DNA of 64,000 nucleotides. Source: Alphaproteobacteria bacterium. GTDB taxonomy: Bacteria; Pseudomonadota; Alphaproteobacteria; Micavibrionales; Micavibrionaceae. The notes under the pieces were generated by a model. It was given only the letters and a program-made list of their open reading frames with translations, had not been told where the DNA came from and did no database searches. Positions 1,624 to 62,515 of this stretch are shown one piece after another. The stretch's first letter is position 1. The number at the start of each line of letters is the position of its first letter. The translations under genes were made by a program, and so were the position numbers. The DNA lies in contig JAJOJU010000046.1 in NCBI GenBank assembly GCA_021208265.1, forward strand, positions 1 to 64,000, written 5' to 3'.

Positions 1624-2064
1624 CTATAGCTCCGCCATATCAAACCACTGCTTAACAAGGGGGCAAGCCTCAACAGCATTATGCAATATTTTAGTCGCAG
1701 CACGGATCAATATTTCATTTCGTCCAGAATTGCCATCTCCATGCTTTCCCCCGTGGAAAAGATTATTCCTGACACTCAGGCACGCTTGTAGCATTTCTCT
1801 TGTGTCTGAGTCCTTTATCTTTTCCGGAGATGACCAGTATATATTACCATCCTTGTATAGCTGCTTTTTGGGGGGGCTATCAAGAAAATGCCTAATATCA
1901 GCATCAACTGTATCAACGCGCAATTCCTTGTGTACATGGATAATAAATTTTTCCCAGTCCGGCATGGCAGAATCCTTTCTGCCGATTGTTACAAAACCAC
2001 TGTTTTTTAGCGCGTATTCTAACTTTGATATAAAAAGAAAATAATCTTGTGCCGCCTTATTCAT
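1624..2064 (-). CDS. HEPN-like protein with Rx4H motif
   Basis: A 146-aa, mainly helical protein. I start it at MNKAAQ (2064) because AAGGGG lies eight bases upstream; the longer in-frame ORF begins at 2133. Residues 99-104 read RNNLFH, followed by GGKHGD, which matches the R-x4-6-H signature of HEPN domains. Many HEPN proteins are RNases in toxin-antitoxin and anti-phage systems, but others are non-enzymatic, so nuclease activity is inferred only. Its start overlaps the end of the upstream DUF6804-like gene by 8 bp, which implies translational coupling in a three-gene operon with the TPR-like gene. Confidence 0.6.
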   Translation of the reverse strand: MNKAAQDYFLFISKLEYALKNSGFVTIGRKDSAMPDWEKFIIHVHKELRVDTVDADIRHFLDSPPKKQLYKDGNIYWSSPEKIKDSDTREMLQACLSVRNNLFHGGKHGDGNSGRNEILIRAATKILHNAVEACPLVKQWFDMAEL

Positions 2065-2386
2065 GGCCATCCCCTTTTCTCGTTTTATATTGAAGATATG
2101 CAGAATAGGCAAAAAATACCCCGGTAATCGCATCCAAAGTCATCCAGATTTCTTTGGTCATGTGGATCGTCGCCACCGGGTTGAAAAGAATTGCCACCAT
2201 TGCCCATACCCAGAGCCATACCCCTTGATACCCGCTATTCCATAGCCGATAGCAGATAACCCCGGCACAGCCGCATACAATGATCCGCATGAAGGTATAG
2301 TATCCATAGGGCAGGGGCGCTATGGCGATGAATAACAGCGCCGCTGCCAGAGCAAGTATTTCATATGGAAGATATACATATTTCAT
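2057..2386 (-). CDS. Small membrane protein, DUF6804-like
   Basis: A 109-aa protein with about four hydrophobic segments (roughly residues 8-25, 30-48, 53-72 and 80-97) and a charged tail (KTRKGDGHE). The signature PYGYYTFMRIIVC near the first loop and ILFNP in the third segment match my recollection of the DUF6804 family of small membrane proteins of unknown function. It starts 1 bp after the TPR-like gene stop and overlaps the HEPN-like gene, so the three are one operon. A membrane partner beside a HEPN protein would fit a defence or toxin module, but that is inference. Confidence 0.6.
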   Translation of the reverse strand: MKYVYLPYEILALAAALLFIAIAPLPYGYYTFMRIIVCGCAGVICYRLWNSGYQGVWLWVWAMVAILFNPVATIHMTKEIWMTLDAITGVFFAYSAYLQYKTRKGDGHE

Positions 2387-2387
2387 A

Positions 2388-3029
2388 TTACGAAATATGA
2401 CTTATAAGATTTGAAAATGCACTTTCCATTTGCTCAATGGATTGTTGTCCTTGAGAAACGACTTTACTCATATGAAATGGAATTTTCTGTGCCTTTAATG
2501 ACTTGGCTTTTTCCAAACCTTTTTGAGCAATGCTCAAACAGTCCTCTCGCTTGTTAAGCATCGCATAGACATTGGCTAATCCCATGTATGCAGCCAACTG
2601 ATTATCATCGAGACATATGGCCGATTCCAGAGTGTTTCTCACTATTCCATAATGATGCGACATTTTTTTCTCACTGAATGATGATGCTTGCAAAAGGGAT
2701 TTTAGAGCATCCACCGATGGCATACCAACTTTACAAAGTATTGCAGAAACTTGAGTGCATCCAACCCCTTCTACATATCCTTGTTTTCCAAGCGTTTCAT
2801 AAAAGTGAACAAGGCGCAGTTCCATTGACGTAATGACGAAAACCTCGAACATAGGATCATCGCCAAATTTCTCTACAAGTTCACTGATTAGCCTTGGGTT
2901 AACATTATGCCACGGACGAGTTCTCATAAACCAATCTCGCCGCTCATCAGCATTTTTATTCATGTGAAATGGTTTTGTTGTATTCTCGTTAGAAATTTTT
3001 TGTCCCAGCAGTTTACTTAAAAATCTCAT
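2388..3029 (-). CDS. TPR-like helical protein
   Basis: A 213-aa protein with no signal peptide. Residues about 120-175 read as tetratricopeptide-like helices (ESAICLDDNQLAAYMGLANV, then YAMLNKREDCLSIAQKGLEK). The N-terminal half is not recognisable. The start has GAGGAG seven bases upstream. It is the first gene of an operon with the DUF6804-like and HEPN-like genes. Its start lies 17 nt beyond the T-run of a strong intrinsic terminator, so its expression should depend on read-through or attenuation of the upstream RNA. Confidence 0.55.
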   Translation of the reverse strand: MRFLSKLLGQKISNENTTKPFHMNKNADERRDWFMRTRPWHNVNPRLISELVEKFGDDPMFEVFVITSMELRLVHFYETLGKQGYVEGVGCTQVSAILCKVGMPSVDALKSLLQASSFSEKKMSHHYGIVRNTLESAICLDDNQLAAYMGLANVYAMLNKREDCLSIAQKGLEKAKSLKAQKIPFHMSKVVSQGQQSIEQMESAFSNLISHIS

Positions 3030-3045
3030 ATCAAACTCCTCAAAG

Positions 3046-3078
3046 AAAAATCACCAGAAGCTGTCCTTCTTCTGGTGA
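3046..3078 (-). terminator. Intrinsic terminator ahead of the TPR operon
   Basis: A perfect 10-bp stem (3051-3060 with 3069-3078) closes an 8-nt loop and is followed on the minus strand by five T residues. It lies between the structured RNA and the TPR start codon. Its position fits either an attenuator or the end of a free-standing small RNA. Confidence 0.75.
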
Positions 3079-3243
3079 CCGGGAGTTTTCAAGCCGCTAT
3101 AAGACGACCACGACGGCCTTTACGCCGAAACGCTGGACATACGCCGCCGCCTCCCGGTCATAGACCGAGAAGCGACGTGTTGACGGATACGTCATCCGCT
3201 TATAGAGGGCTTGAAAAGGCCCAGCCTGCCAAAGAGACAAGCT
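3051..3243 (-). ncRNA. Candidate structured RNA / attenuator leader
   Basis: The minus-strand RNA can form a closing helix of 17 bp (3208-3217 with 3086-3095, and 3199-3205 with 3097-3103). Inside it are an 11-bp hairpin (3163-3173 with 3149-3159, loop UAU), a CGGC/GCCG hairpin (3124-3127 with 3114-3117) and a TGACG/CGTCA hairpin (3181-3194). The 3' arm of the 11-bp hairpin is also perfectly complementary over 9 nt to 3077-3085, which would form a pseudoknot crossing the closing helix and touch the terminator stem. A promoter upstream and a terminator downstream delimit about 200 nt. I do not recognise a known RNA class. Confidence 0.6.
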
Positions 3244-13108: not shown

Positions 13109-13145
13109 ATGGACTTGGGCGTAGCCATACTCCATTCTTCCCCCC

Positions 13146-15964
13146 ATGGCTGCCGAAAAAACACCCCCTGATTCCGAAATGCGGAAAGATGATTTGTACC
13201 TTGTTGATGGCTCCGGATTCATCTTCCGGGCTTATTTTGCCCTGCCCCAGAACCTGACAAACCCGGCGGGCCAACCGGTGGGCGCGGTGCTGGGTTTCGT
13301 GAACATGCTGATGAAGCTTTTGAGCGACTTTCATGCCCCGAATATCGCCGTTATATTCGACGCCGCCCGCAAGAACTTCCGCTACGATATCTATGACCTA
13401 TACAAGGCTAACCGCGATGATCCGCCGGAAGATTTAATACCGCAATTCCCGATGTTCCGCACCGCCGCCGAAGCCTTCGGCATTCCGGCGCTGGAGGTTG
13501 AAGGGTATGAGGCCGATGATTTGATAGCCGCTTACGCCCGTCTGGCGCAGGAACAGGGGAAAAACGTTACGATTGTGGGGTCTGATAAAGACCTTTATCA
13601 GCTGGTCAATGACCATGTACGGTTGTTTGATCCCTTAAAACAGAAATATATCGGCCCGGCGGAAGTGGCTGAAAAATTCGGTGTCCCGCCTGAAAAAGTG
13701 GTGGAAGTGCAAGCGCTTTCGGGGGACAGCGTTGATAATATTCCGGGCGTTCCCGGCATCGGCCCCAAAACAGCGGCGGAGCTGATTAATACTTACGGCG
13801 ATGTTGAAACACTGCTTGCCCGCGCCGGAGAGATCACCCAAAACAAGCGCCGTGAAAGCCTGATCGAACATGCGGAAAACGCCCGGATATCACGAAAGCT
13901 AGTGGAGCTCGATCGCTTCGCCCCCCGTGCCAATGGCGGTGGAGGACTTAAAAAGCTCGCGATCTGTCGGACAACAAAGCGCTGGTGGCATTCTTGCAGG
14001 AACAAGGGTTTAAATCCGTTCTGGCGCGGCTGGGCGCCTCCACGGAAACAGCTGGTCCTACAACCGCTTCTGCCCCACAGAATGCAGCACCAGCAGCAAA
14101 ATACCCATCGCTATCTGATAACAAATACACCCTGATCACCGATGAAAAAACGCTGACCCAATGGATCGTCAAGGCCTATGAAGAAGGCATTCTGGCGATT
14201 GATACCGAAACCACCAGCCTGACGCCCGCTATGGCTGATCTGGTGGGTATTCGATCGCCATCACGCCGGGCGAAGCGGCCTATATCCCGCTCGGTCACAA
14301 ACAAAGCGGCGGTGATTTATTCGGCGGCGGCGGCGACGCACCCGATCAATTGCCGATGGATAAAGCCATCGCGCTCCTGAAACCGCTGCTGGAGGATGAG
14401 TCCGTCCTTAAAATCGGCCATAACATGAAATATGACTGGCAGATGTTTAAGCAAAAGGGCATCCACACGGCACCTTGCGATGATACGATGCTGATATCAT
14501 ACGTGCTGGATGGCTCCACCGTTTCGCACGGCATGGATAATCTGTCCGAACGCTATCTGGGCCATAAGCCGATTTCCTATGACGAAGTAACGGGCACGGG
14601 GAAAAGCCGTATTACCTTTGATCTGGTGTCCCTCGATAAAGCCCTCGATTACGCGGCGGAAGACGCTGATGTCACGCTGCGCCTGCATAAGCTTTTAAAG
14701 CCGCGGCTGGTGCAGGAAAAGATGGTGTCGGTCTATGAGAATATCGATCGCCCGCTCATTCCCGTTATTGCCCAGATGGAGCTGGAGGGCATTAAGGTGG
14801 ACTCAGCCATCCTCAAATCCATGAGCACCGAATTCGGCTTAAAGCTTGCGGCGCTGGAAAAGGAAATTCAGGATATCGCGGGCATGCCGTTTAACGTGGC
14901 ATCGCCTAAACAAGTGGGTGAAATCCTCTTCGATTCCATGGGCCTTTCTGGCGGCAAGAAAACCAAAACGGGCCAGTGGCAGACGGATGCCGATCTACTG
15001 GAAGATCTAGCCGCGCAGGGGCATGAGATCATCAAAAAAAATCCTCGAATACCGGATGCTGGCGAAACTCAAATCAACTTATACCGATGCGTTGCAGGAA
15101 CAGCTAAACCCGCGCACGGGCCGGGTGCATACATCATTCGCGGTGGCGCATACCAGCACCGGGCGGCTGGCCTCCAGCGATCCGAACCTCCAGAACATCC
15201 CGATCCGTACGGAAGAGGGGCGCAAGATACGGGAGGCGTTTGTCGCGGCGCCGGGACACGTACTCCTCTCCGTTGATTACTCGCAAGTGGAGCTGCGTTT
15301 AGCGGCGCAAATGGCGGGGGTGGAAGCCCTTAAAAAAGCGTTTCGGGACGGGGAAGATATCCATACCCTCACCGCCAGCCAAGTCTTCGGCGTGCCATTG
15401 GATCAAGTCACGCCCGATATCCGCCGCCAGGCCAAGGCCGTGAACTTCGGCATCATATACGGTATTTCCGGCTGGGGTCTTGCCAAACAACTCGGCATTG
15501 ATGCCGGAACCGCCAATGAATTCATCAAGCGTTATCTTACAAAGTTCAAGGAAATTCAGGATTTCATGGAGGCGCGGAAGGATGAAGCGCGCGCCAACCT
15601 TTACGTCAAAACGCTCTATGGACGCAAATGCTTCACCCCGAACATCAATAACAAGATGCAAGGCTTAAAGCTGGGGGCCGAACGCGCCGCGATCAATGCC
15701 CCCCTACAAGGTACGGCGGCAGATATCATGAAAATTGCCATGGCTGCCATGCCGCCTGCCCTTGCCAAAGCGGGCTTGAAAGCACGCATGCTCTTACAGG
15801 TTCATGATGAATTGATTTTTGAAGTACCGGAAGGCGAGGCCGAAAAAACCGCCGTACTGGTTAAGGATGTCATGGAGAACGCTTTCAAATTTCCCGGCAT
15901 TAATTTTGACGTGCCGCTGGACGCTGAGGCCGGTACGGGCCTCTCATGGGCAGCAGCACATTAG
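13146..15964 (+). CDS. polA: DNA polymerase I, frameshifted
   Basis: Replication and repair polymerase. The 5'-3' exonuclease domain comes first (LYLVDGSGFIFRAYFAL, VGSDKDLYQLV, GDSVDNIPGVPGIGPKTA). The 3'-5' exonuclease domain follows (LAIDTETTSL, IGHNMKYDWQ), then the polymerase domain (TGRLASSDPNLQNIPIR, SVDYSQVELRL, RRQAKAVNFGIIYG, LQVHDELIFEV). All catalytic motifs are present. Four single-base indels break the frame: a C-run at 13922-13927, an A-run near 13951, a missing T near 14252, and an A-run of eight near 15034-15041. The restored protein is about 935 aa. The stop overlaps the convergent DUF1223 gene. Confidence 0.93.
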
Positions 15965-23078: not shown

Positions 23079-23159
23079 AAACAAGCCGCCATTTTTCCTT
23101 GTTTTCTGCCGTTCCTTTCGCCATGATGGGGCCGGATTTAGCAAAAGGATGAGATAAGT

Positions 23160-25557
23160 ATGAAATTCACGCTTTCGTGGCTGAAAAGACATCTTGAAAC
23201 GAATGCATCGCTTGAGGAAATCGGCAATGCTCTGACATCGCTGGGGCTGGAGGTTGAGGGGATAGAAGACCGCGCCGCAGTTTACGCGCCGTTCAAGGTG
23301 GCCTATGTCGAAAGCGCTGAAAAACACCCGGATGCCGACCGCCTGAAGGTCTGCATGGTGAAAACCGCCGATCACGGCATGCTGCAAGTTGTTTGCGGCG
23401 CGCCCAATGCCCGTGCGGGTATGAAGGCCGTGTTTGCGCCGGAAGGCTCCGTCATTCCTGCCAACGGCATGATTCTAAAAAAGGGGAATATCCGCGGCGT
23501 GGAAAGCAACGGCATGATGGTGTCGATGGCTGAAATGGGCTTATCAGAAGACCATGACGGTATCATCGAAGCCCCGACAACGTCCGAAATCGGCACACCT
23601 CTGGCGGCCATATACGGGCTGGATGACCCGGTGATTGAAATATCCCTCACCCCCAACCGTGTGGATTGCGCAGGCGTGCGCGGTATTGCCCGTGATCTGG
23701 CGGCAAAGGGGCTTGGCACATTAAAACCCCTGGCGGATGCCCCTGTGAAGGGCAGCTATGCCTCCCCCACCAAAGTATCCTTGAAAGATGAACAGGGTTG
23801 CCCGCTTTTCATCGGGCGTACAGTTAAGGGCGTTAAAAACGGCCCCTCACCGGAATGGCTGCAAAACCTTCTGAAGGGTGTGGGTCTGCGCCCTATCTCG
23901 GCGTTGGTGGATGTCACAAACTTTCTGTCGCTCGATCTCTGCCGCCCGCTGCACGTCTATGATGCTGACAAGCTGAAAGGCAATATTTACGCCGGAACGT
24001 CCAAGGGCGGGGAAGAACTGGAGGCCTTGAACGACAAAACCTATACCCTGCCGGAAGGCTGCGTCACCATTAATGATGACAGCGGCGTACTGGGTTTGGG
24101 CGGCGTTGTCGGCGGCACGTCCACAGGCTGTACGGATGCCACCACCAATGTCTTTATCGAAGCCGCCTATTTCGACCCGATGCGCATCGCCAAAACAGGC
24201 CGAAGCTTAAGCATTGAAAGCGATGCCCGCTATCGCTTTGAACGCGGGATCGACCCTGCCTTCACGGGCGCCGGAATAGAAATCGCCACCGCGCTTATTC
24301 TGGAGATTTGCGGCGGGGAAGCCAGTGACGTGGTTGTGGCGGGCAGCGTGCCCCCTTGCAGCAAGACCATTGAATTTGACCCGGCATTCACGGAAAAGCT
24401 GACGGGCCTTGCCGTTCCCACTGACGCTCAGGAAAAAATTCTGCGCGATCTAGGCTTTGATGTCAAAGGCAAGACCGTGACCGTACCCAGCTGGCGCGGT
24501 GATATCTGGGCGGTGGAAACTGACGGACGGGCCGATCTCGCGGAAGAAATCCTGCGTGTGACCGGGTTTGACGCTCTGCCATCCACTTCCGTCCGCGCTA
24601 GCGATAGCATTCCCGGCGCCCCGGAAACGGATCTTCTCACCCGCACGCGCAAATCACGCCTGACACTGACCACACGTGGATTTTCTGAATGCGTAACATG
24701 GTCATTCATGAATAAGGAACGTGCCAAGCTATTTGGTTCTAATGATAACGCGGCCCTTGCCATCGCTAACCCGATCAGTACAGAGATTGACCAGATGCGC
24801 CCATCGCTCCTGCCCGGTCTGATTGAAGCTGCAGCCAAGAACGCAGCGCGCGGGTTTCTGACGTGGCCTTGTGTGAAATCGGCCCTGTCTTCGGCGGCAC
24901 CAAGCCGGAAGATCAGAAGGTCGTAGCAGGCGGCATTCGTGCCGGAAACTACGCAGGCCGCCATTGGGCCGGCCCGGTGCGCGGCGTTGATGCTTATGAT
25001 GCCAAGGCGGATGCTCTGGCTGTGCTGGAAGCGCTCGGCGTGAAAGCTGATAACGCGCAAGTCCAGCGTAACACCCCGTCTTATTACCATCCTGGTCGTT
25101 CGGGCACGTTACAGCTTGGCCCCAATGTGCTGGCTGTGTTTGGTGAAATTCATCCGCTGGTAAAAGAAGAACTTGATATCAAAACCCCGCTGGTGGGTTT
25201 TGAAGTATTCTTAAATGCTATCCCTGCGCCCAAGAAAAAGGGCGGCACGGAAAAACCGCTGGTGGAGCTTTCAGCCTTCCAGCCGCTCACCCGCGATTTT
25301 GCCTTCGTGGTGGCACAGGATGTCGATGCTGACGCGCTTGTAAAAGCGCCCGTTCGGCGGAGAAAAAGCTGATCGTAGAAGCGTCCGTCTTTGATATTTA
25401 TGTCGGCAAGGGCGTGGAAGAGGGCAAGAAATCCATCGCCCTTACCATCACCATCCAGCCGGTTGAAAAGACGCTGACGGATGAGGAGATCGATGCCATA
25501 GCTGCGCAGGTTATCGGACAGGTGCAGCAAAAAACCGGCGGGGTTTTACGGGGCTGA
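23160..25557 (+). CDS. pheT: Phenylalanyl-tRNA synthetase beta subunit, frameshifted
   Basis: The structural and editing subunit of PheRS. It begins MKFTLSWLKRHLETNASLEE, typical of pheT, with an EMAP/OB tRNA-binding domain at about residues 40-150 (HPDADRLKVC), the B3/B4 editing domain, B5, the core and the C-terminal anticodon-binding FDX-ACB domain (LTRDFAFVVAQDVDADALV). Two single-base deletions break it: near 24862 (GFP-DVALCE) and near 25345 (VKAARSAEKK). Restored length is about 798 aa. It is separated from pheS. The end overlaps the convergent membrane-protein gene by 12 bp. Confidence 0.93.
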
Positions 25558-28027: not shown

Positions 28028-28573
28028 ATGAGGTGTGTGTTAATTGTGGGATTTTATACTGTGAACATTTCTTACTCTGCAAATGATATTTCCGCTTCGG
28101 AAGATCTAAAGCCTATCAAGATGGTCTTAAAGTGGTTCAACGGCACCAAGGGATTCGGTTTCGTTGTGCCCGAGGATGAAAGCTTTGATGCCTTCATTCA
28201 TATCACGACATTGCATGATGCCGGCCTGCACTCTATCGGTGAGGGAGCCGAGCTGATGTGCACTCTCTTTGACGGCCCCAAGGGCAAACAAGTCAAAGAG
28301 ATTACGGAAGTGCTGCATCAGGGCTCTTTCTCAACCATTCCTCAGGAAAACCCGGAGGAAGGCACAATCACCATGGGCGGCCTCGTCAAATGGTATAAGC
28401 CGGAAAAGGGCTTTGGCTTTGTGATTCCAGATGATGGGCAGAAAGATGTCTTCATCCATAAATGCCGCCTTGATGAAATGGGTCTGGAAGAGGTCCGTGC
28501 CGGTCAACGCGTTAAAATTACTGTGCGCGATGTTGATAAGGGCCGCGAAGCCATCAAGATCGAAATAGAGTAA
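28028..28573 (+). CDS. Double cold-shock-domain protein
   Basis: A protein of up to 181 aa with two cold-shock domains in tandem. The first has [18 protein letters not shown] and DAFIHITTL; the second has [19 protein letters not shown] and [10 protein letters not shown]. Both RNP1-like and RNP2-like motifs are present, so it should bind single-stranded RNA or DNA. Two-domain CSPs are common in alphaproteobacteria. The start is uncertain: ATG 28028 lies only six bases past a TATACT -10-like box, and GTG 28061 has GGGA upstream. Confidence 0.93.
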
Positions 28574-31500
28574 GCAAACCGCTTAGCTTTTTCTTTGCCT
28601 CACCCTTATTACCGCTTGTCCGCCAGCTCTTGAAGTTTTCGCGCAACATCAGTGCGCTCGGCGTTACCACCAGTGTCAGAACGGTGGAGAATGTCAGGCC
28701 AAAGGCGATAGCGCTTGATAACTGCACCCACCATTGCGTGGAGGGCGCACCGATACTAACTTCCCGCGTGATAAAATCAATATTGGTCTGACATACCATC
28801 GGCATCAGGCCAATTACCGTTGTCAACGTTGTCAGCAAGACCGGGCGCAAGCGCTGTACGCCCGTACGCATGATAATCTCTTTCCCGCTCAGCTCGCCGC
28901 CATGTTTACGCTTTAAGTAATCAAACGTATCGATCAGCACAATATTGTTATTCACGATAATCCCGGCCAGCGCGATCACACCAATACCGCTCATGATAAT
29001 GCCGAAGGGCTGCTGCGTTATGATCAACCCCAGCATCACCCCGATCGTGCTCATCAAAATGGCGCTTAAAATAAGCCCCGCGCTATAAAAACTATTAAAC
29101 TGAGCCAGCAGAATAATCGCAATCATGAAAAGCGCGACTGTGAAGGCCTCCTTCAAAAACTCTTCCGATTCGCGTTGCTGCTCGTCTTCACCCTTAAATG
29201 TGAGCTCGATGGACGGGTCGAACTTGTCGCGGTTCGCCAGCAGCCAGGTCTTTATCTGCTCAACCTTTTCATTCGTATTCACACCGGGCGGCAGATCAGC
29301 CTTCACCGTGATGATCCGGCGTTGGTCGGACCGGTTAATCACCCCGGTTGCCTGCTTGGGCGTGCGGGTCACAAAGCTTGAAACAGGGACCGATCCCTCA
29401 CCCGTTTCAATGCGCACGCGGTCAAGCTGGTCGAGCGTCCGGCTTTCTTTTTCATGACGAATAACGATATCAATCTCATCATCACTGTCATCGGGGCGGT
29501 ATTCAGCAACCTCCAGCCCGTTGGTCACCATACGTATGTAATATCCCACTTGCGTGATATCGAGGCCGAATTTCCGAGCCTGCGCCCGGTCGACATCCAG
29601 CTCCCACTTAATTCCCGGCATGGGGCGGGTATCTTCCACATCGCGGAAATCACCAATTTCCTGTAAAGCCCCTAAAACGGCCTCAGTTGCGTCATCCAAT
29701 GTTTCCGGCAAGCGTGAACCAATTTGAATCTGTACGGCCTTACCCGTCGGCGGGCCTTCTTCCATCTTGCGGGTCTCCACGCGAAGACCTGGAATATCGC
29801 GTGTAACATCACGAATTTTGGTCAGAATTTCATCCGCCGGGGGACGCTGATCCCAATCCCGGAACTGCATCTGTAATTGCCCGATGACATCTTCGGCAAG
29901 GTCTGAGCCTTGCTGCACCGGCTTACCGCTACGGGTATATAAAACTTCGATACCCTTTATGTCGTTATTGAGATCAATGACGCGGTTTTCCACTTCACGC
30001 ACCAGCTGGTCTTGTTCAAAGACGGACAAATTACCCCGGGCATGAATAAGCACAGTTGCCAGTTCCGGCTCAATTTCCGGGAAGAATTCCACACCCTTAC
30101 CCACCGCGCCATAAAGAACCATAACCCCGACCAGCACAACAAACGCCCCCGCCAGCACGCGGCCCGGCATATTAAGCGCCTTATCCAGAACCTTGGCATA
30201 CCCCCCGGTTAGCCCTTTGAGCTTTTCAAAATGCCCCTGTTCGGTCGCAATCACCATGTCTTTCATACCAGAATTATCCTGCGCGGGTTTGCCGAACAAC
30301 GCCCCCAGCACGGCGTAAAAAACAGCGCGAAGAAGAAGGAGGATGACAGCACCGCCATCAACGTCAGCGGCATATATTTCATGAATTCCCCAACAATGCC
30401 CGGCCAGAAGAGCAGCGGCGCAAAAGCCGCCAGCACAGTCGCGGTGGAGGAGAAAATGGGCCAGAACATGCGCGTTGCCGCCTCAACATAGGCATCCGCC
30501 CGTTTATAACCTTCCAGCATTTTACGGTCGGCATATTCCACCACGATGGTCGCGCTATCGACCACCATCCCGGCGGAGAATATGAGCGAAAACAGCACCA
30601 CCACATTCACCGTCAGGCCGCTTAGATACAACATCAAAATGCCCGCAAGGAACGACCCCGGAATGGCAATCACCACCAGGAACGATGCCCGCAGGCCGAT
30701 ATACCAGATGGTGACAATCAGGACGAGTACCACGGCGGATATCAAATTATTCTCCAAATCGCGCAGCATGATGCGGATCTGTTTTGACTGATCTTGCGAA
30801 AATGTGACATGCACAGCGTCCGGCCAGTGTGCTTTTTCTTCCTGCACCACCTGTTTAACGGCTTCAATCGTATCGATGATATTTTCGCCGCTGCGCTTTA
30901 CGACTTCCAGCGCGATGGCGGGCTTACCATCCAGCCGCGCGAAGCTGTCCGGGTCGCGGAACCCCGGCGCACCTCGGCAATATCCCCCGCCGTGATCGTG
31001 GAATCGCCCACGGTTTTCAGCGGCATGGTCAGGATATCATTCACGCTTTCAAACAGGCCCGGCACTTCCACCGGGAAGCGGCCCGTTCCAGTATCCAGAT
31101 TCCCCGCCGCCACCAGGCGATTGGAAAGCCCGAAGAAATTAAGCAGCTGCGCACCGTCCAGCCCGTAACTTTCAACATGTTCGGGGTCGACAATAATCTC
31201 CACCAGTTCATCCCGGTTGCCGCCGATCCCGGCTTCCAGAACGGATGAGAGACTTTCCACCTTATCCTGCAAATCCCGCGCGAGCTTCAGCAATGTGCGC
31301 TCTGGCACATCGCCCGATGGCGTCACCACCAAAACAGGGAAGAGGGAGAAATTCACTTCCGTCACGCGCGGCTCGTCCACATCGGCGGGCAGTTCCGGCC
31401 TTGTGCGGTCGACAGCCTTTTGCACATCATCCAACGCCTTGTCCTTGTCAAACCCCGCCCAGAATTCCATCAGCACGAAACCGCCACCCTGATAGCCTGT

Positions 31501-31749
31501 GGCCTTCATTTCCTTCAATCCTTCAATGCGGGATAATTCCTGCTCCAGCGGGCGGATGAGCAGCCGTTCGGAATCCTCCGGCGAGATACCTTCCAGCCCC
31601 ACCGAAATATAAATCTGCGGGATATCAATATCGGGCGAGGATTCCTTGGGGATCGCCGTATAGGCATAAGCCCCCGCCACAAAAATCAGCAGCAGGATCG
31701 TTAAAACCGTGCGGGTTTGATAGATCGTAAGGCGTACCAGATTTTCCAT
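28554..31749 (-). CDS. RND efflux transporter (AcrB/AcrD family), frameshifted
   Basis: An inner-membrane proton-driven efflux pump. Three frames join into about 1,060 aa after single-base repairs near 30970 (EVRRG-FRDPDS) and 30300 (FFTP-VLGALF). It starts [19 protein letters not shown] and has the first transmembrane helix, porter domains, and the TM4 region [18 protein letters not shown] with the proton-relay acidic residues. A second six-helix block ends the protein. It is preceded by the adaptor gene 12 bp upstream. The 3' end overlaps the convergent cold-shock gene. Substrates cannot be predicted. Confidence 0.9.
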
Positions 31750-31760
31750 GGCATCTCCGC

Positions 31761-32849
31761 TTACAAAAGCCCTCCGCCATCTGACTCAACGGCGTTCACG
31801 CGCTGGCCCGTTTTCACGAATTCCTGCCCGACCGTGATAATCCGCGTTTCATCCGGCAGGCCGTCCACCCATGTTTCGCCGCTGAAATCCGCCAGAATAC
31901 GAACGGGTTTGAACTGTACGATATCACTACCATCCACAATCTTCACACCGATCATCCCTTCATCATTCAGGGTGAGGTTGGAGGAGGATATTTTATGCGC
32001 CGAGAGCTCTTCCGCCGGAACGGAAAGCCGCACCGTAAGACCGGCCCGCAAGGAGTTATCCGGGTTATCGGCAGAGGCCAGTATCCGGAAAGTCCGCGTC
32101 ATCGGGTTGGCAGCGGCGGCGCTGAACGTGATTGTCCCCTGCAAGGTTGTATCACCATCCAGAAATTCAGCTGTTACCGGCTTGCCGGGGCGAATGGCAG
32201 CGATATCCTTTTCCGCCACGAATGCTTCAATCTCCAGCGGGTTTATCTGCACGACCGTAAATAAATCATTGCCTGCGCTTAACGTATCGCCCAGCTCGAT
32301 ATTCTGCTCATTGAGGATGCCGTCAAACGGCGCCGTAATATCGGTTTTGCCGCGGGTGGAGCGCGCATCTTCCAATACGGCACGAGCCGTTTCCAATTGC
32401 GCTTCTGCTTGCGCCAACGCCACACGGGAATTAAACCCCTTACTTTCCAAAGCCTTGGCAGCCTCAAACTGAATCTCCCGCTGGGCCACAAGGCTTTGCG
32501 CTTCTCTGACGCGGGCATCACGATCCTGCAATTCGATGCGGGCCAGCACGTCACCCGCTTGCACAACCGCGCCCTCTTCACGCAAAATTTCAGTAACGCG
32601 GCCTGTAATCTCGGCCCTTAAATTCACACGGCGCGAAGCTTGCGTACGCCCGGTTAATAATACTTGCCGCGTGAAATTCTCTGCCGTGCTGGTCCGCACA
32701 CGGATTGCAGGAATGGCATCTTCCTTATCTGCTACTTCTGCCTGCACAGAACCATCTGTGATCTCTTCACCCGGCACAATAAAGCGCGAAGCGATCCATA
32801 AACAGGCGATCACGGTAATAACGAAAGCAATCGTGCGGGATGAAACCAT
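31761..32849 (-). CDS. RND periplasmic adaptor (membrane fusion protein)
   Basis: A 362-aa MFP of the HlyD/AcrA type. I start it at MVSSRTIAFVITVIACLWIA (32849), which gives an N-terminal membrane anchor; the ORF runs back to 33002 without a credible start. Barrel-sandwich/lipoyl halves (VNLRAEITGRVTEILREEGA and ITAPFDGILNEQNIELGD) flank a coiled-coil hairpin. The beta-barrel domain follows. It links the RND pump, 12 bp downstream, to an outer-membrane channel. No such channel gene is present here. Confidence 0.9.
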   Translation of the reverse strand: MVSSRTIAFVITVIACLWIASRFIVPGEEITDGSVQAEVADKEDAIPAIRVRTSTAENFTRQVLLTGRTQASRRVNLRAEITGRVTEILREEGAVVQAGDVLARIELQDRDARVREAQSLVAQREIQFEAAKALESKGFNSRVALAQAEAQLETARAVLEDARSTRGKTDITAPFDGILNEQNIELGDTLSAGNDLFTVVQINPLEIEAFVAEKDIAAIRPGKPVTAEFLDGDTTLQGTITFSAAAANPMTRTFRILASADNPDNSLRAGLTVRLSVPAEELSAHKISSSNLTLNDEGMIGVKIVDGSDIVQFKPVRILADFSGETWVDGLPDETRIITVGQEFVKTGQRVNAVESDGGGLL

Positions 32850-56287: not shown

Positions 56288-56805
56288 ATGACAACGATAC
56301 TTTCCGTACGTAAAGGCAGCGAAGTGGTGCTGGCAGGCGATGGTCAGGTTTCGCTGGGCCAGACGGTTATGAAATCGAATGCCCGCAAGGTGCGCCGTTT
56401 GGGCCGCGATGGTGAAATTATTGCCGGATTCGCGGGTGCCACGGCAGATGCTTTTACGCTGTTCGAACGGCTGGAAGCTAAATTAGAGGCCATCCCGGTC
56501 AGCTGATGCGTGCCTGCGTGGAGCTGGCGAAGGACTGGCGCACTGATCGTTATTTGCGGCGGTTGGAAGCCATTATGGCGGTGTGTGATAAGGAAGTTTC
56601 GCTTATTCTGTCCGGCACGGGCGATGTGATCGAGCCGGAAGACGGGCTGATCGGTATCGGGTCCGGCGGCAATTACGCTCTGGCGGCGGCGCGCGCGCTT
56701 ATTGATACGGATATGGGGCCTGAAGATATCGTCCGTAAATCCCTCAAAATCGCGGCGGATATCTGTGTTTACACGAATGACAATATCGTTCTGGAGAAGA
56801 TTTGA
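56288..56805 (+). CDS. hslV: ATP-dependent protease peptidase HslV, frameshifted
   Basis: The proteolytic subunit of HslUV. Catalytic Thr follows the initiator Met in [20 protein letters not shown]. The start has AGGAG eight bases upstream. The frame stops after EAIPVS, but one missing G near 56500 joins it to [20 protein letters not shown] and [20 protein letters not shown]. The restored protein is about 172 aa. hslU follows after one intervening gene. Confidence 0.93.
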
Positions 56806-57343
56806 GCGCCATAAATGATATCCTCTTTTGGGTCTGCGGGTTCGTTCTGTGCTGGCAGGCCTATATCCTGATTTTTAACCGCGGTATTCCAAATATAAGA
56901 ACAGCCCCCGCCGTGCGGGATGAGATGATCCGCCTGCTGCGGGGAGCCGGGGCAAAACGGATTTATGATCTGGGCGCAGGCGTTGGCGATTTAAGCCGCG
57001 CGATTGCCAAGACCCTGCCGGAGGCGCGGGTGACGGGGATCGAAATTTCAAAATCCGCCTGCCGTAAGGCGGAAACACGTGCCCGCCGTGCCGGGTTTGA
57101 TAACCTTGATTACAAGCAGGCTGATTTCATGAAAACGGATTTGTCGGATGCGGACGGGGTTGTCATGTTTCTTCTCGATACCATGATGCCCTGTTGCGGG
57201 AAAAACTGCGGAAGGAGTTAAAGCCCGGCACGATTGTCATCTCCAACAAATTTCCCTTGGGCGGCGACTGGGCGCCGGAGCATGAGATCACGGTCAAAAC
57301 GCGCTATTTAAACCAGAAAATGCTTTATGTGTACCGGGCTTGA
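56802..57343 (+). CDS. Class I SAM-dependent methyltransferase, frameshifted
   Basis: About 180 aa with an N-terminal hydrophobic segment ([20 protein letters not shown]). The SAM-binding motif I is [15 protein letters not shown], followed by [19 protein letters not shown] missing or extra base near 57190 changes the frame: the end is [20 protein letters not shown] and MLYVYRA. The TTG start overlaps the hslV stop. It sits between hslV and hslU in the same orientation, and the substrate is not evident. Confidence 0.8.
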
Positions 57344-57374
57344 TTCCATCACAGCTGCGCTCTAAGTTAGGCCC

Positions 57375-58729
57375 ATGAACGCAATTCTTGGTACCAAAAC
57401 AGAGTCCGTAAATGACATCCCCGCTTTTTCCCCGCGCGAGATTGTAAGCGAGCTTGACCGCTTTATCATTGGTCAGGGCGATGCGAAAAAAGCGGTGGCG
57501 ATTGCGCTGCGGAACCGCTGGCGGCGTATGCAGCTTCCTGCCGCTTTACAGGAAGAAATTTACCCGAAAAATATCCTGATGATCGGCCCCACAGGTGTGG
57601 GGAAAACCGAAATTGCACGGCGCCTGGCAAAACTGGCGCAAGCGCCGTTTCTGAAAGTGGAGGCCACAAAATTCACAGAAGTGGGCTATGTGGGCAAGGA
57701 TGTGGAATCGATTATTCGGGATTTAGTCGACAACGCCATCCACATGATGCGCGAAAAGATGAGAAAGACCGTGACGGCGCAGGCCGAACTGACGGCGGAA
57801 GAGCGCGTTCTTGATGCGCTGGTCGGTGAAAATGCGGGCGAGGGAACACGCAATAATTTCCGGGAGAAGCTGCGTAAAGGCGAGCTTAACGACCGTCAGA
57901 TCGATATCGAGGTGACCGACAATTCCAACCCGTTCGGTGGCATGATGGATATTCCGGGCATGCCGGGCGCGAGCATGTCGATGATCAACATGAATGATCT
58001 GTTCGGTAAAGCTATGGGCGGGCGCACCAAAAAACGCAAAATGAGCGTGGCGGAAAGTTATGATGTGCTGGTCGCCGAAGAATCCGACAAGCTTCTGGAT
58101 GAAGAAAAAAATGGTCGATCTGGCGCTGGAGCTGGTTGAACAAAACGGCATCGTCTTTATTGACGAGATTGATAAAATCGCCGCCCGGCAGGATGTGAAA
58201 GGCGGTGATGTAAGCCGTGAAGGTGTGCAGCGTGATTTGCTGCCGCTGATTGAGGGGACAACCGTGAACACCAAACACGGCCCCGTTAAAACCGATCATA
58301 TTTTGTTTATTGCGTCCGGTGCATTTCATTATGCCAAGCCGTCGGATTTGCTGGCGGAATTGCAAGGGCGCCTTCCCATACGTGTGGAGCTGAAGGCCCT
58401 GACGATGGATGATTTCAAACGCATTTTGAAAGACACCGAAGCCAGTTTGATCGAACAATCCGTAGCCCTTATCGGCACGGAAGATGTGACGCTGGTGTTT
58501 GAAGATGAAGCGATTGATGAGATTGCCCGCCTGTCATTCGAAGATGAACGAGCGCGTGGAAAATATCGGCGCGCGGCGTTTGCATACGGTGATTGAAAAA
58601 TTGCTGGAGGAGATATCTTTTACGGCATCCGACCGCAGCGGCGAAACGGTGACGATTACAGCGGATTATGTGCGTAAGACTGTCGAAAGCCTCGTGAAAT
58701 CGGCCGACCTGAGCCGGTTTATTTTATAA
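57375..58729 (+). CDS. hslU: HslUV ATPase subunit HslU, frameshifted
   Basis: The AAA+ unfoldase of Hsl[22 protein letters not shown] opens it. The Walker A is [11 protein letters not shown], the Walker [10 protein letters not shown], and the I-domain lies between them (residues ~105-245). The sensor/arginine-finger regions follow. The frame breaks twice: at the A-run near 58107-58113 ([20 protein letters not shown]) and near 58543 ([21 protein letters not shown]). The restored protein is about 450 aa. Confidence 0.94.
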
Positions 58730-60001: not shown

Positions 60002-60081
60002 ATGTTTATGGTTAATAACTTTCTGGTCCGCCGTCAATCTTTGCGGTTCATTTTATGCCGCCGTTTTGCTTCAATGGGCTT

Positions 60082-61080
60082 ATGAAGATCAGGATATTGC
60101 TTGCGCTGGGATTGTTATGGACGGCAAACGCTTATGCGGCGGAACCACCGCGTTTTTTGCTGCCGCTTGATTGCGTTATGGGTGAAACATGTTGGGCAGC
60201 AAATTATGTTGATATGGACCCCAAGCCGGATAGCGTCAGGGATTTCACTTGCGGCCCGCGCAGTTTCGAGGCGCATCAGGGGACAGATTTTGCCGTGCGC
60301 TCCCGCGCTGAAATGCATAAAGGCGTGAATGTTCTGGCGGCGCTGGACGGTACAGTCTTGCGCGTACGTGACGGTGAAACCGATACCGAAAAAGCGCCTG
60401 CCGACCTTGAAAAAATTCATGCCGAAAACAAGGATTGCGGTAACGGCGTTTATGTTGACCATGCCAAGGCTGGGTTTAAAGGCCTGACGACACTTTACTG
60501 CCATATGAAACAGGGCTCGGTCAAGGTAAAGGCAGGTGATGCCGTAAAAGCGGGCGATGTTTTGGGCCAGGTGGGGCAAAGCGGTTTTGCCGAATTTCCG
60601 CATGTGCATTTTAGTATTATCTGGGAAGGCGCCGTTGTTGACCCGTTTACGGGCGTAAACAGCAGCGATGGTTGCGGCGGGTTTAAGCGTAAGCTCTGGA
60701 AAGACGCGGGCATGACCTACACACCCATTTCCATTTATGACGGCGGTTTCCGTGCGGCGCCGCCCGATTTTGAAGTCATCAAGGCAGGTGATAGCGCCCC
60801 AAAAACATTATCACCCGCTTCCGAAGCTTTGGTGTTTTGGACGGGCCTGTTCGGCGTGCGCGAAGGTGATCAGATTGCGCTCACCATTACTGATCCGAAC
60901 GGTGTGGAATTCATCCGCCGTGATATTACACAAGATGTAACCCGCGCCCGGCAGTTTTATTTTACGGGGCGCGAATTGAAAGGCAGAACGATCCCCGCTG
61001 GAAAATGGACGGGTAAAGTTTTGCTGCACCGTGCCGGCATCACCGATCAGATCCGCGAATTTGATATCACCGTGCAATAA
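60082..61080 (+). CDS. Peptidase M23 family protein
   Basis: A 332-aa secreted metalloprotease-like protein. The signal peptide is MKIRILLALGLLWTANAYA. The LytM/M23 fold is visible with HQGTDFAV (HxxxD Zn site), TLYCHMKQGSVKVKAGDAV (HM) and FPHVHFSII (HxH). A C-terminal beta domain follows (VKAGDSAPKTLSPASEALVF onward). Likely a periplasmic peptidoglycan endopeptidase. Its stop overlaps the convergent protease-like gene by 14 bp. Confidence 0.92.
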   Translation: MKIRILLALGLLWTANAYAAEPPRFLLPLDCVMGETCWAANYVDMDPKPDSVRDFTCGPRSFEAHQGTDFAVRSRAEMHKGVNVLAALDGTVLRVRDGETDTEKAPADLEKIHAENKDCGNGVYVDHAKAGFKGLTTLYCHMKQGSVKVKAGDAVKAGDVLGQVGQSGFAEFPHVHFSIIWEGAVVDPFTGVNSSDGCGGFKRKLWKDAGMTYTPISIYDGGFRAAPPDFEVIKAGDSAPKTLSPASEALVFWTGLFGVREGDQIALTITDPNGVEFIRRDITQDVTRARQFYFTGRELKGRTIPAGKWTGKVLLHRAGITDQIREFDITVQ

Positions 61081-62515
61081 CGATGGGCTCATCGGTTGCC
61101 GCTTGCGGCGCAACTTCGCCTGGCGGCAGAATGTGCAGCCGCGCCAGGGCTTCTTCGACCGGGATAAAATAATTGAGGCCGACACCGTGGCGGAGTTTTT
61201 CTTCACCGTCCGTATCCGTTACCTCGTAAGGGCCTTCGGTAATGCCGATGATATTGCCGTATTCATCAAGCAGCGGGCCGCCATCGGAACCACGGTGAAT
61301 TTCAACATCGCCCTGAATATAATTCTGTGCCACGCCGAATAATTTGTAGTTTTTGCGGTGGGCGCTGACGATGCCTTTGGTAAGGGTGTCGGTCATGTAT
61401 TTCCAGTCAAGCGGCGCGCCGATGGCGTAAATATCCTCCCCCACTTTGGGCCATGCTGCACGGATCGGCAGGGTTGTGATTTCCAGCCCTTCCGGGATTT
61501 CTTCCAGTTTTAAAAGTGCGACATTGCGGGATTTATCAACGCGTAAAACTTCCGCCGGGATTTTAAATTTCCGGTCGGATGTCACGATGCGGGTGCGCAA
61601 AGCATCACCCACCGCGGTGAAAGTGGTGAGGATATGCCCCTGCTTGCTGATGAAAAAGCCTGAACCGTGCCCGAATTTTTGTACCATCACGGCGGCCTTG
61701 CGCCCGTCTTCCGCCCATTTGCCAAAGGGCTGCGTAGAAAGAGGTTGCACGGGCAGCACAACATCCTCAAGCGGATCGAATTTACGGGGGCGCGATGCCC
61801 AATCATCATCAAGGCGCTTTTGCCGTTCGCTGATGCCGTAATCTTTTGGCTTCATGCCCTTAACGATAAGATCATAAAACTGCGGGTCGGAAGCCAGATT
61901 ATGCGTGGCCATTTCAAACGCATCATGGAACATGAGCGCGAGACCTTCCACATTGTGCAGGCGGCGCTTGGTGTAACCTTCGGTGCGGGTTTTATAAACG
62001 GCGGTGCGTTTAACAGGGTCCCACACGCTCCAGTCTATCGCCACATAAAGCTCGCCCCGTTCACCCTTGTTGGGGCGATAGAAAAGATAGTAATCCTTGC
62101 CGGATGAGACGCATTCATCAACCTGCACATCGCGCAGCTTGGCCTTGATGGAATATTCAGCGCGCTCCACATCGTCTTCCGCTTCTTCGTCGATTAGATC
62201 CAGCCCCTCCACCACGTCATAGCCGTTGGCTTCCATGGCGTCATGAAAGCTTTGCTTGATGTATTTAGGCTCAATTATATCCTTAATGGCAGATCGTTTG
62301 AGGGGATCACCCGATACCGTGCAAAAAACGCCGTTACGCTCTTTCCCCACATTACTGCCGGGCGGCAAAACCAGCTCAAGGCTTGACCATTTGATCGGTG
62401 AGGGCCGTGCATCTTCCGGCATGATAACGGACGGGGCGTAATCAACCTCGCGCACCAGCGGGCCGCAGGACGTTACAAAGACAAGCGTAAGGAAAAGGAT
62501 AAGGCAGCGTTTCAT
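61067..62515 (-). CDS. Trypsin-like (S1C) lipoprotein with lost catalytic triad
   Basis: A 482-aa lipoprotein; the lipobox is VTSC at Cys17. Residues ~40-250 are an uncharacterised N-terminal domain. Residues ~280-460 follow the HtrA/S1C pattern (GSGFFISKQGHILT, VALLKL, GGPLLDEYGNIIGI). The three catalytic positions are changed: the His of ILTNAHVV reads Thr300, the Asp of RDVALLKL is Asn331, and the Ser of GNSGGP is Asp411. It is therefore probably a non-proteolytic binding protein. The frame is intact. Confidence 0.85.
   Translation of the reverse strand: MKRCLILFLTLVFVTSCGPLVREVDYAPSVIMPEDARPSPIKWSSLELVLPPGSNVGKERNGVFCTVSGDPLKRSAIKDIIEPKYIKQSFHDAMEANGYDVVEGLDLIDEEAEDDVERAEYSIKAKLRDVQVDECVSSGKDYYLFYRPNKGERGELYVAIDWSVWDPVKRTAVYKTRTEGYTKRRLHNVEGLALMFHDAFEMATHNLASDPQFYDLIVKGMKPKDYGISERQKRLDDDWASRPRKFDPLEDVVLPVQPLSTQPFGKWAEDGRKAAVMVQKFGHGSGFFISKQGHILTTFTAVGDALRTRIVTSDRKFKIPAEVLRVDKSRNVALLKLEEIPEGLEITTLPIRAAWPKVGEDIYAIGAPLDWKYMTDTLTKGIVSAHRKNYKLFGVAQNYIQGDVEIHRGSDGGPLLDEYGNIIGITEGPYEVTDTDGEEKLRHGVGLNYFIPVEEALARLHILPPGEVAPQAATDEPIVIAR

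Follow-up and report, generated by a model that had tools for sequence, protein, structure and literature searches.

The question raised by this locus is whether a lipoprotein with the fold of an HtrA-type protease and none of its catalytic residues is kept for a non-catalytic role or is heading for loss. The gene lies on the minus strand (61067-62515) of the window, by which we mean the whole 64,000-nucleotide stretch of DNA analyzed, and its 482-residue product, read from the sequence, starts MKRCLILFLTLVFVTSC. From the ORF and Pfam, we describe the product as a lipoprotein with an N-terminal alpha/beta domain and a C-terminal S1C trypsin-fold pseudoprotease domain, without a PDZ domain. A signal peptide and lipobox (V-T-S-C, Cys17; 62465-62515, minus strand) are followed by the N-terminal domain (residues 36-228; 61832-62410, minus strand), which belongs to no Pfam family and is predicted to adopt a beta-alpha-beta-beta-beta-alpha fold of LptE/PelC/CsgG/HpaA/FlgT-type likeness. 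The trypsin-fold domain comprises residues 275-462 (61130-61693, minus strand; PF13365/S1C, from Pfam and PDB matches). The lipobox cysteine is conserved in the aligned orthologs. As the first-pass annotation had described, an M23 peptidase gene is convergent with this ORF (60055-61080, plus strand) and overlaps it by 14 bp at the 3′ ends; its HxxxD and HxH motifs are intact (HQGTD and HVH). Three relatives whose triad is intact likewise have an M23 homologue next to the ortholog, and several orthologs adjoin his/hslVU-type housekeeping genes. The arrangement of genes around hslVU and his may point to an alphaproteobacterium. Gene neighbours were rejected as a functional clue, given this housekeeping context and the M23 neighbour beside intact orthologs.

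The Trypsin_2 profile (PF13365) matches residues 283-424 over its full length (1-144 of 144; E=1.3e-21, 78 bits against a cut-off of 27.6). The best PDB matches of the domain are HtrA/Deg proteins, in which the catalytic His, Asp and Ser stand opposite Thr300, Asn331 and Asp411. The ORF, its strand and length and the lipobox were confirmed, as were the retained S1C fold marks and the three substitutions reported in the first-pass annotation. In the alignment, the His column is occupied by codon 300 (ACC, 61616-61618), the Asp column by codon 331 (AAT, 61523-61525) and the Ser column by codon 411 (GAT, 61283-61285; GSDGGP versus GNSGGP), all on the minus strand, and the His-Asp-Ser triad of the S1C (HtrA/Do) family is absent. 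Pfam gave no PDZ match in the protein, whose C-terminus lies about 20 residues beyond the trypsin domain. Judged by these sequence features, the window protein is a member of the S1C fold and not an active S1 peptidase. We also compared the window protein with 33 intact orthologs at the 87 columns that are at least 90% conserved among them. Twelve columns are changed in the window protein, and the changes are concentrated at the active site beyond chance, since they affect 8 of the 15 columns formed by the three catalytic motifs together with the S1-side segment 426-429, as against 4 of the 72 columns elsewhere (Fisher p=3.9e-5). The substitutions V427E and G429P break two of these conserved columns in the segment that follows the nucleophile loop (TEGP, residues 426-429; 61229-61240, minus strand, placed by alignment), which we take to be the segment lining the S1 pocket in HtrA. 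The ORF, the lipobox and 68 of the 72 conserved columns outside the active site are retained. The product should be proteolytically dead, with its fold and remaining sequence constrained. A full-length AlphaFold model built from a 3-sequence alignment (pLDDT 45.7) was too poor for reading the active site.

The sequence around the His motif bears on whether all three substitutions are real. It reads ACC-ACT-TTC-ACC (TFTA at residues 298-301) with a CAC triplet at 61617-61619 that is shifted by one base from the frame, and the change could stem from a local double indel, whether genuine or an artefact. Indel-type frameshifts occur elsewhere on the contig, where polA is split over 3 frames, pheT over 2, the RND permease over 3 and hslU over 3; the contig is thus rich in apparent indel errors, and genes that appear absent or broken in the window are therefore not to be taken as biology. 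Split housekeeping genes lie at window positions 13125-15961, 23142-25369, 28557-31785, 57366-58723 and 56781-57340, and by eye the methyltransferase upstream of hslU is frame-split as well. An assembly artefact, in which two opposite indel errors within about 10 bases shift the His motif and the true protein keeps His while losing Asp and Ser, would account for the displaced His codon exactly at the motif and for the change of four adjacent residues, and it draws on the frameshifts in polA, pheT, the RND permease and hslU. However, two errors that compensate each other would have to fall within about 10 bp, whereas the observed frameshifts are uncompensated, and the loss of Ser would by itself be enough to end S1 catalysis. 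The local displacement does not affect D331N or S411D, which are read in frame, and Asp at 411 recurs independently in another genome, G121. We regard the artefact as very unlikely. H300T is nevertheless less secure than the other two substitutions, because of the contig indels and the out-of-frame His codon; S411D is unaffected, so the nucleophile is gone either way.

Orthologs, full-length or in pieces, were found in 40 of the 104 genomes of the window's taxonomic family (E<=1e-30; window genome included) and also further afield, among others in a Syntrophaceae and an Omnitrophota MAG. In another family of the same order, a protein of more than 1560 amino acids (G134, L064 1-4689) terminates in a related trypsin domain whose His, Asp and Ser motifs are intact; by eye, the protein also contains SEL1-like repeats and segments of an AAA-type ATPase, and its architecture is thus a different one. 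In an alignment of 38 sequences, window included, His and Asp are present in 37 and Ser in 35, with Asn at the Ser column in 2, and the Thr-Asn-Asp combination is found in the window protein alone. Across the family, aligned homologues therefore carry intact triads at these positions, the very observation that the first-pass annotation had named as refuting its reading, and its 'consistent loss' does not hold among orthologs. L037, the ortholog closest to the window protein on the tree (branch support 94/81), has an intact triad, as do four other members of the nine-member subclade that holds the window protein (support 100/100). Because L037 and the other intact subclade members keep His-Asp-Ser, the triple loss is private to the window lineage. 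Further losses occur within the same subclade: G123 (L036) has GSNGG and G121 (L054), of the same genus as the window, has GSDGG, both with His and Asp kept, and G084 (L058) has lost His and Ser (K/D/R). The G084 copy (about 1922-3082 of its locus, minus strand) is changed at 30 of the 87 conserved columns and has a branch length of 2.4, yet it retains an open frame of 455 amino acids; it is, as predicted from its residues, a strongly diverged pseudoprotease. G103 (L046), which lies outside the subclade, reads KDSNGG instead of GGNSGG and has lost only Ser. In two genomes, G121 (L054 427-463) and G079 (L057 2241-2252), the frame is broken at the linker between the N-terminal and trypsin domains, either by sequencing error or by separation of the domains.

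Single-residue losses within the taxonomic family are all at Ser, and the pattern on the tree suggests an order in which Ser would go first, then His and Asp. This order is not universal, since L117 and L125, of a distant clade, lack the His but retain Ser in the Ser column. The motifs also bear on altered catalysis, in which cleavage would persist through Ser410, the neighbour of the lost nucleophile, or through some other residue. In its favour, the GSD and GSN motifs of the window genome (G000), G121, G123 and G103 still have a Ser at the position just upstream. However, two orthologs, L035 and L038, have GSSGG with the nucleophile intact, which indicates that Asn410 can change to Ser without loss of Ser411 and that the same Ser is a neutral variant before the nucleophile; the window protein has, moreover, lost His and Asp too. 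We consider altered catalysis extremely improbable.

Losses of the triad recur beyond the taxonomic family. A class-wide search with a profile made from an alignment of the N-terminal domain recovered this domain in 45 of the 385 genomes of the class; 2 genomes from elsewhere in the phylum have it as well, and in most cases the trypsin fold is fused to it. Three further triad-less clades were found (L116/117/122/125; L124/127/128/129 with L131/133/134/135; and L137/138). A tree of 80 rows, computed with the catalytic columns left out, calls by parsimony for at least seven independent triad losses; it is a quick tree with several deep forks open. The eight proteins of the second clade (L124, L127, L128, L129, L131, L133, L134 and L135; 630-780 amino acids, from two related families) trace to one ancestral loss; there GNSGG has become xxxLGG or xxxIGG and an extra segment lies between the domains, both of which are kept, and in the L131 group the lipobox is seemingly absent. 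The dead trypsin domain of L131, L134 and L135 has dN/dS values of 0.026-0.042 where dS was estimable, just as low as those of intact pairs (about 0.06-0.10). A dead domain can thus be held by strong selection in this lipoprotein family. For the dead domain of L137 and L138, dN/dS is 0.35, and constraint therefore varies.

For the window protein itself, relative-rate tests with five outgroups found no acceleration of the trypsin domain relative to that of the intact L037 with any of them, and the branch lengths on the tree are equal (0.58 against 0.61). Pairwise dN of the trypsin domain is 0.27-0.38 while dS is at least 1.4 or saturated, and selection after the loss is thus not separable from selection before it. 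Such a pattern agrees with the fold having stayed under constraint once catalysis was lost, although a recent loss would look the same. These results bear on the main rival, relaxed selection, in which the gene is dispensable in the window lineage, catalysis was lost by drift and the gene is heading for loss. The patchy distribution (40 of 104 genomes) agrees with dispensability, the loss of Ser and then of other residues resembles stepwise decay, and some copies of the family, namely the fast, triad-less one in G084 and the interdomain frame-broken ones in G121 and G079, show signs of decaying. Against this stand the intact 482-codon ORF with its lipobox, the concentration of substitutions in active-site columns (8/15, with 4/72 elsewhere), the lack of rate acceleration and the strong constraint on dead domains elsewhere, and we judge relaxed selection to be somewhat unlikely. 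The first-pass annotation had suggested a selected pseudoprotease, perhaps a sensor or scaffold. A selected non-catalytic role is plausible, because triads have been lost repeatedly (at least seven times) and one triad-less clade is under strong purifying selection; for the window protein, whose Thr-Asn-Asp combination is known from a single genome, selection is not demonstrable.

Pfam found nothing above chance on the N-terminal domain, in keeping with the earlier remark that it is unfamiliar. A model of residues 30-228 (pLDDT 66, from a 3-sequence alignment) has a strand, a helix, three strands and a helix, and Foldseek comparison with the PDB returned HpaA, FlgT, DUF330, PelC, LptE and CsgG (E about 1e-5, probability 1.0, TM 0.3-0.5). 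The alpha/beta topology of LptE/PelC/CsgG/HpaA/FlgT-type domains is like that predicted here, although sequence identity is about 10%, TM scores stay at 0.3-0.5 and model confidence is only moderate; those proteins, furthermore, are without a trypsin fold, whereas the window domain is fused to one. The model suggests an envelope lipoprotein domain as in secretion and LPS-assembly complexes, as a resemblance of fold and not a membership.

Taken together, these observations make it reasonably probable, in our view, that the gene encodes a membrane-anchored lipoprotein pseudoprotease of an uncharacterized HtrA-related family in which catalysis was lost in the window lineage and the fold acts by non-catalytic binding. 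The family pairs an LptE/PelC/CsgG-like N-terminal domain with a PDZ-less trypsin-fold domain behind it, and most of its members are probably active periplasmic proteases. In the window lineage, the triad and the S1-side segment would have been lost, which would leave no cleavage by the S1 mechanism, and the retained fold may bind non-catalytically, as a scaffold or as a partner or regulator of another envelope protein; such a role would be a repeated fallback of the family. We infer both the binding or scaffold function and its retention by selection in the window genome. Against this explanation stand the occurrence of the T/N/D combination in no second genome, the fast triad-less copy in G084 and the broken frames in G121 and G079. 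Tentatively, one can also entertain that the primary function of the family is independent of proteolysis, with the triad shed time and again (at least seven times, seemingly beginning with Ser) and the trypsin fold retained as a module that binds peptides or proteins within an envelope complex. Few bacterial pseudoproteases have been characterized, and here intact, Ser-only-lost and fully lost members occur together, some of them sharing 50-60% identity and lying close to the same housekeeping genes. The family is thus a natural series in which to ask by what steps and for what reason a protease turns into a scaffold, and whether catalysis is required at all in the intact members.

The likeliest reading is thus a lipoprotein pseudoprotease that binds without cutting, and MamO is its closest precedent. 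In MamO, a degenerate HtrA-like domain binds metal and the protein promotes MamE-dependent proteolysis, and losses in magnetosome HtrA-like proteins arose independently in three taxa (PMC4794232). Both MamO and the window protein retain an HtrA-related trypsin fold with a degenerate triad; however, MamO has a TauE transporter domain, is encoded in magnetosome islands and binds metal, whereas the window protein is a lipoprotein with an LptE/PelC-like N-terminal domain. With 28.4 bits to NF040961 against a cut-off of 800, and no TauE domain, the window protein is not MamO. Literature searches returned MamO and unrelated cases and no description of the lipoprotein family; this kind of pseudoprotease is already known from MamO, and the lipoprotein family and its recurrent triad loss appear to be undescribed. 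A specific form of the non-catalytic binding favoured above is a MamO-like arrangement, in which the dead domain activates or targets an active HtrA/DegP of the same genome, as MamO activates MamE (PMC4794232). The genome does have an intact DegP-type protease that bears a PDZ region (L002) and a second HtrA (L003, on contig C1), the latter split between two frames in the assembly. However, the dead-domain gene and the DegP/HtrA genes are without genetic linkage, and relatives with an intact triad carry DegP-type copies too, which means that the pairing also occurs where no triad was lost; we consider the arrangement unlikely, and pairing with an active HtrA was rejected as the cause of the triad loss on account of those copies. 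With DegP, DegQ and DegS (Do/HtrA; TIGR02037, TIGR02038), the window protein shares the S1C fold and the landmarks GSGF(I), xLT, VALLKL, GGPL and GI(N/T), but it differs in having no PDZ domain, no triad and an N-terminal lipoprotein domain, and it scores 90 bits against a cut-off of 416. CspC and CspA of Clostridioides difficile have a subtilisin (S8) fold and are soluble spore proteins unrelated to the window protein. The likeness is that they too are bacterial pseudoproteases, termed germination pseudoproteases by their authors (PMC6636752, PMC12880746), and work as signal-responsive binding proteins.
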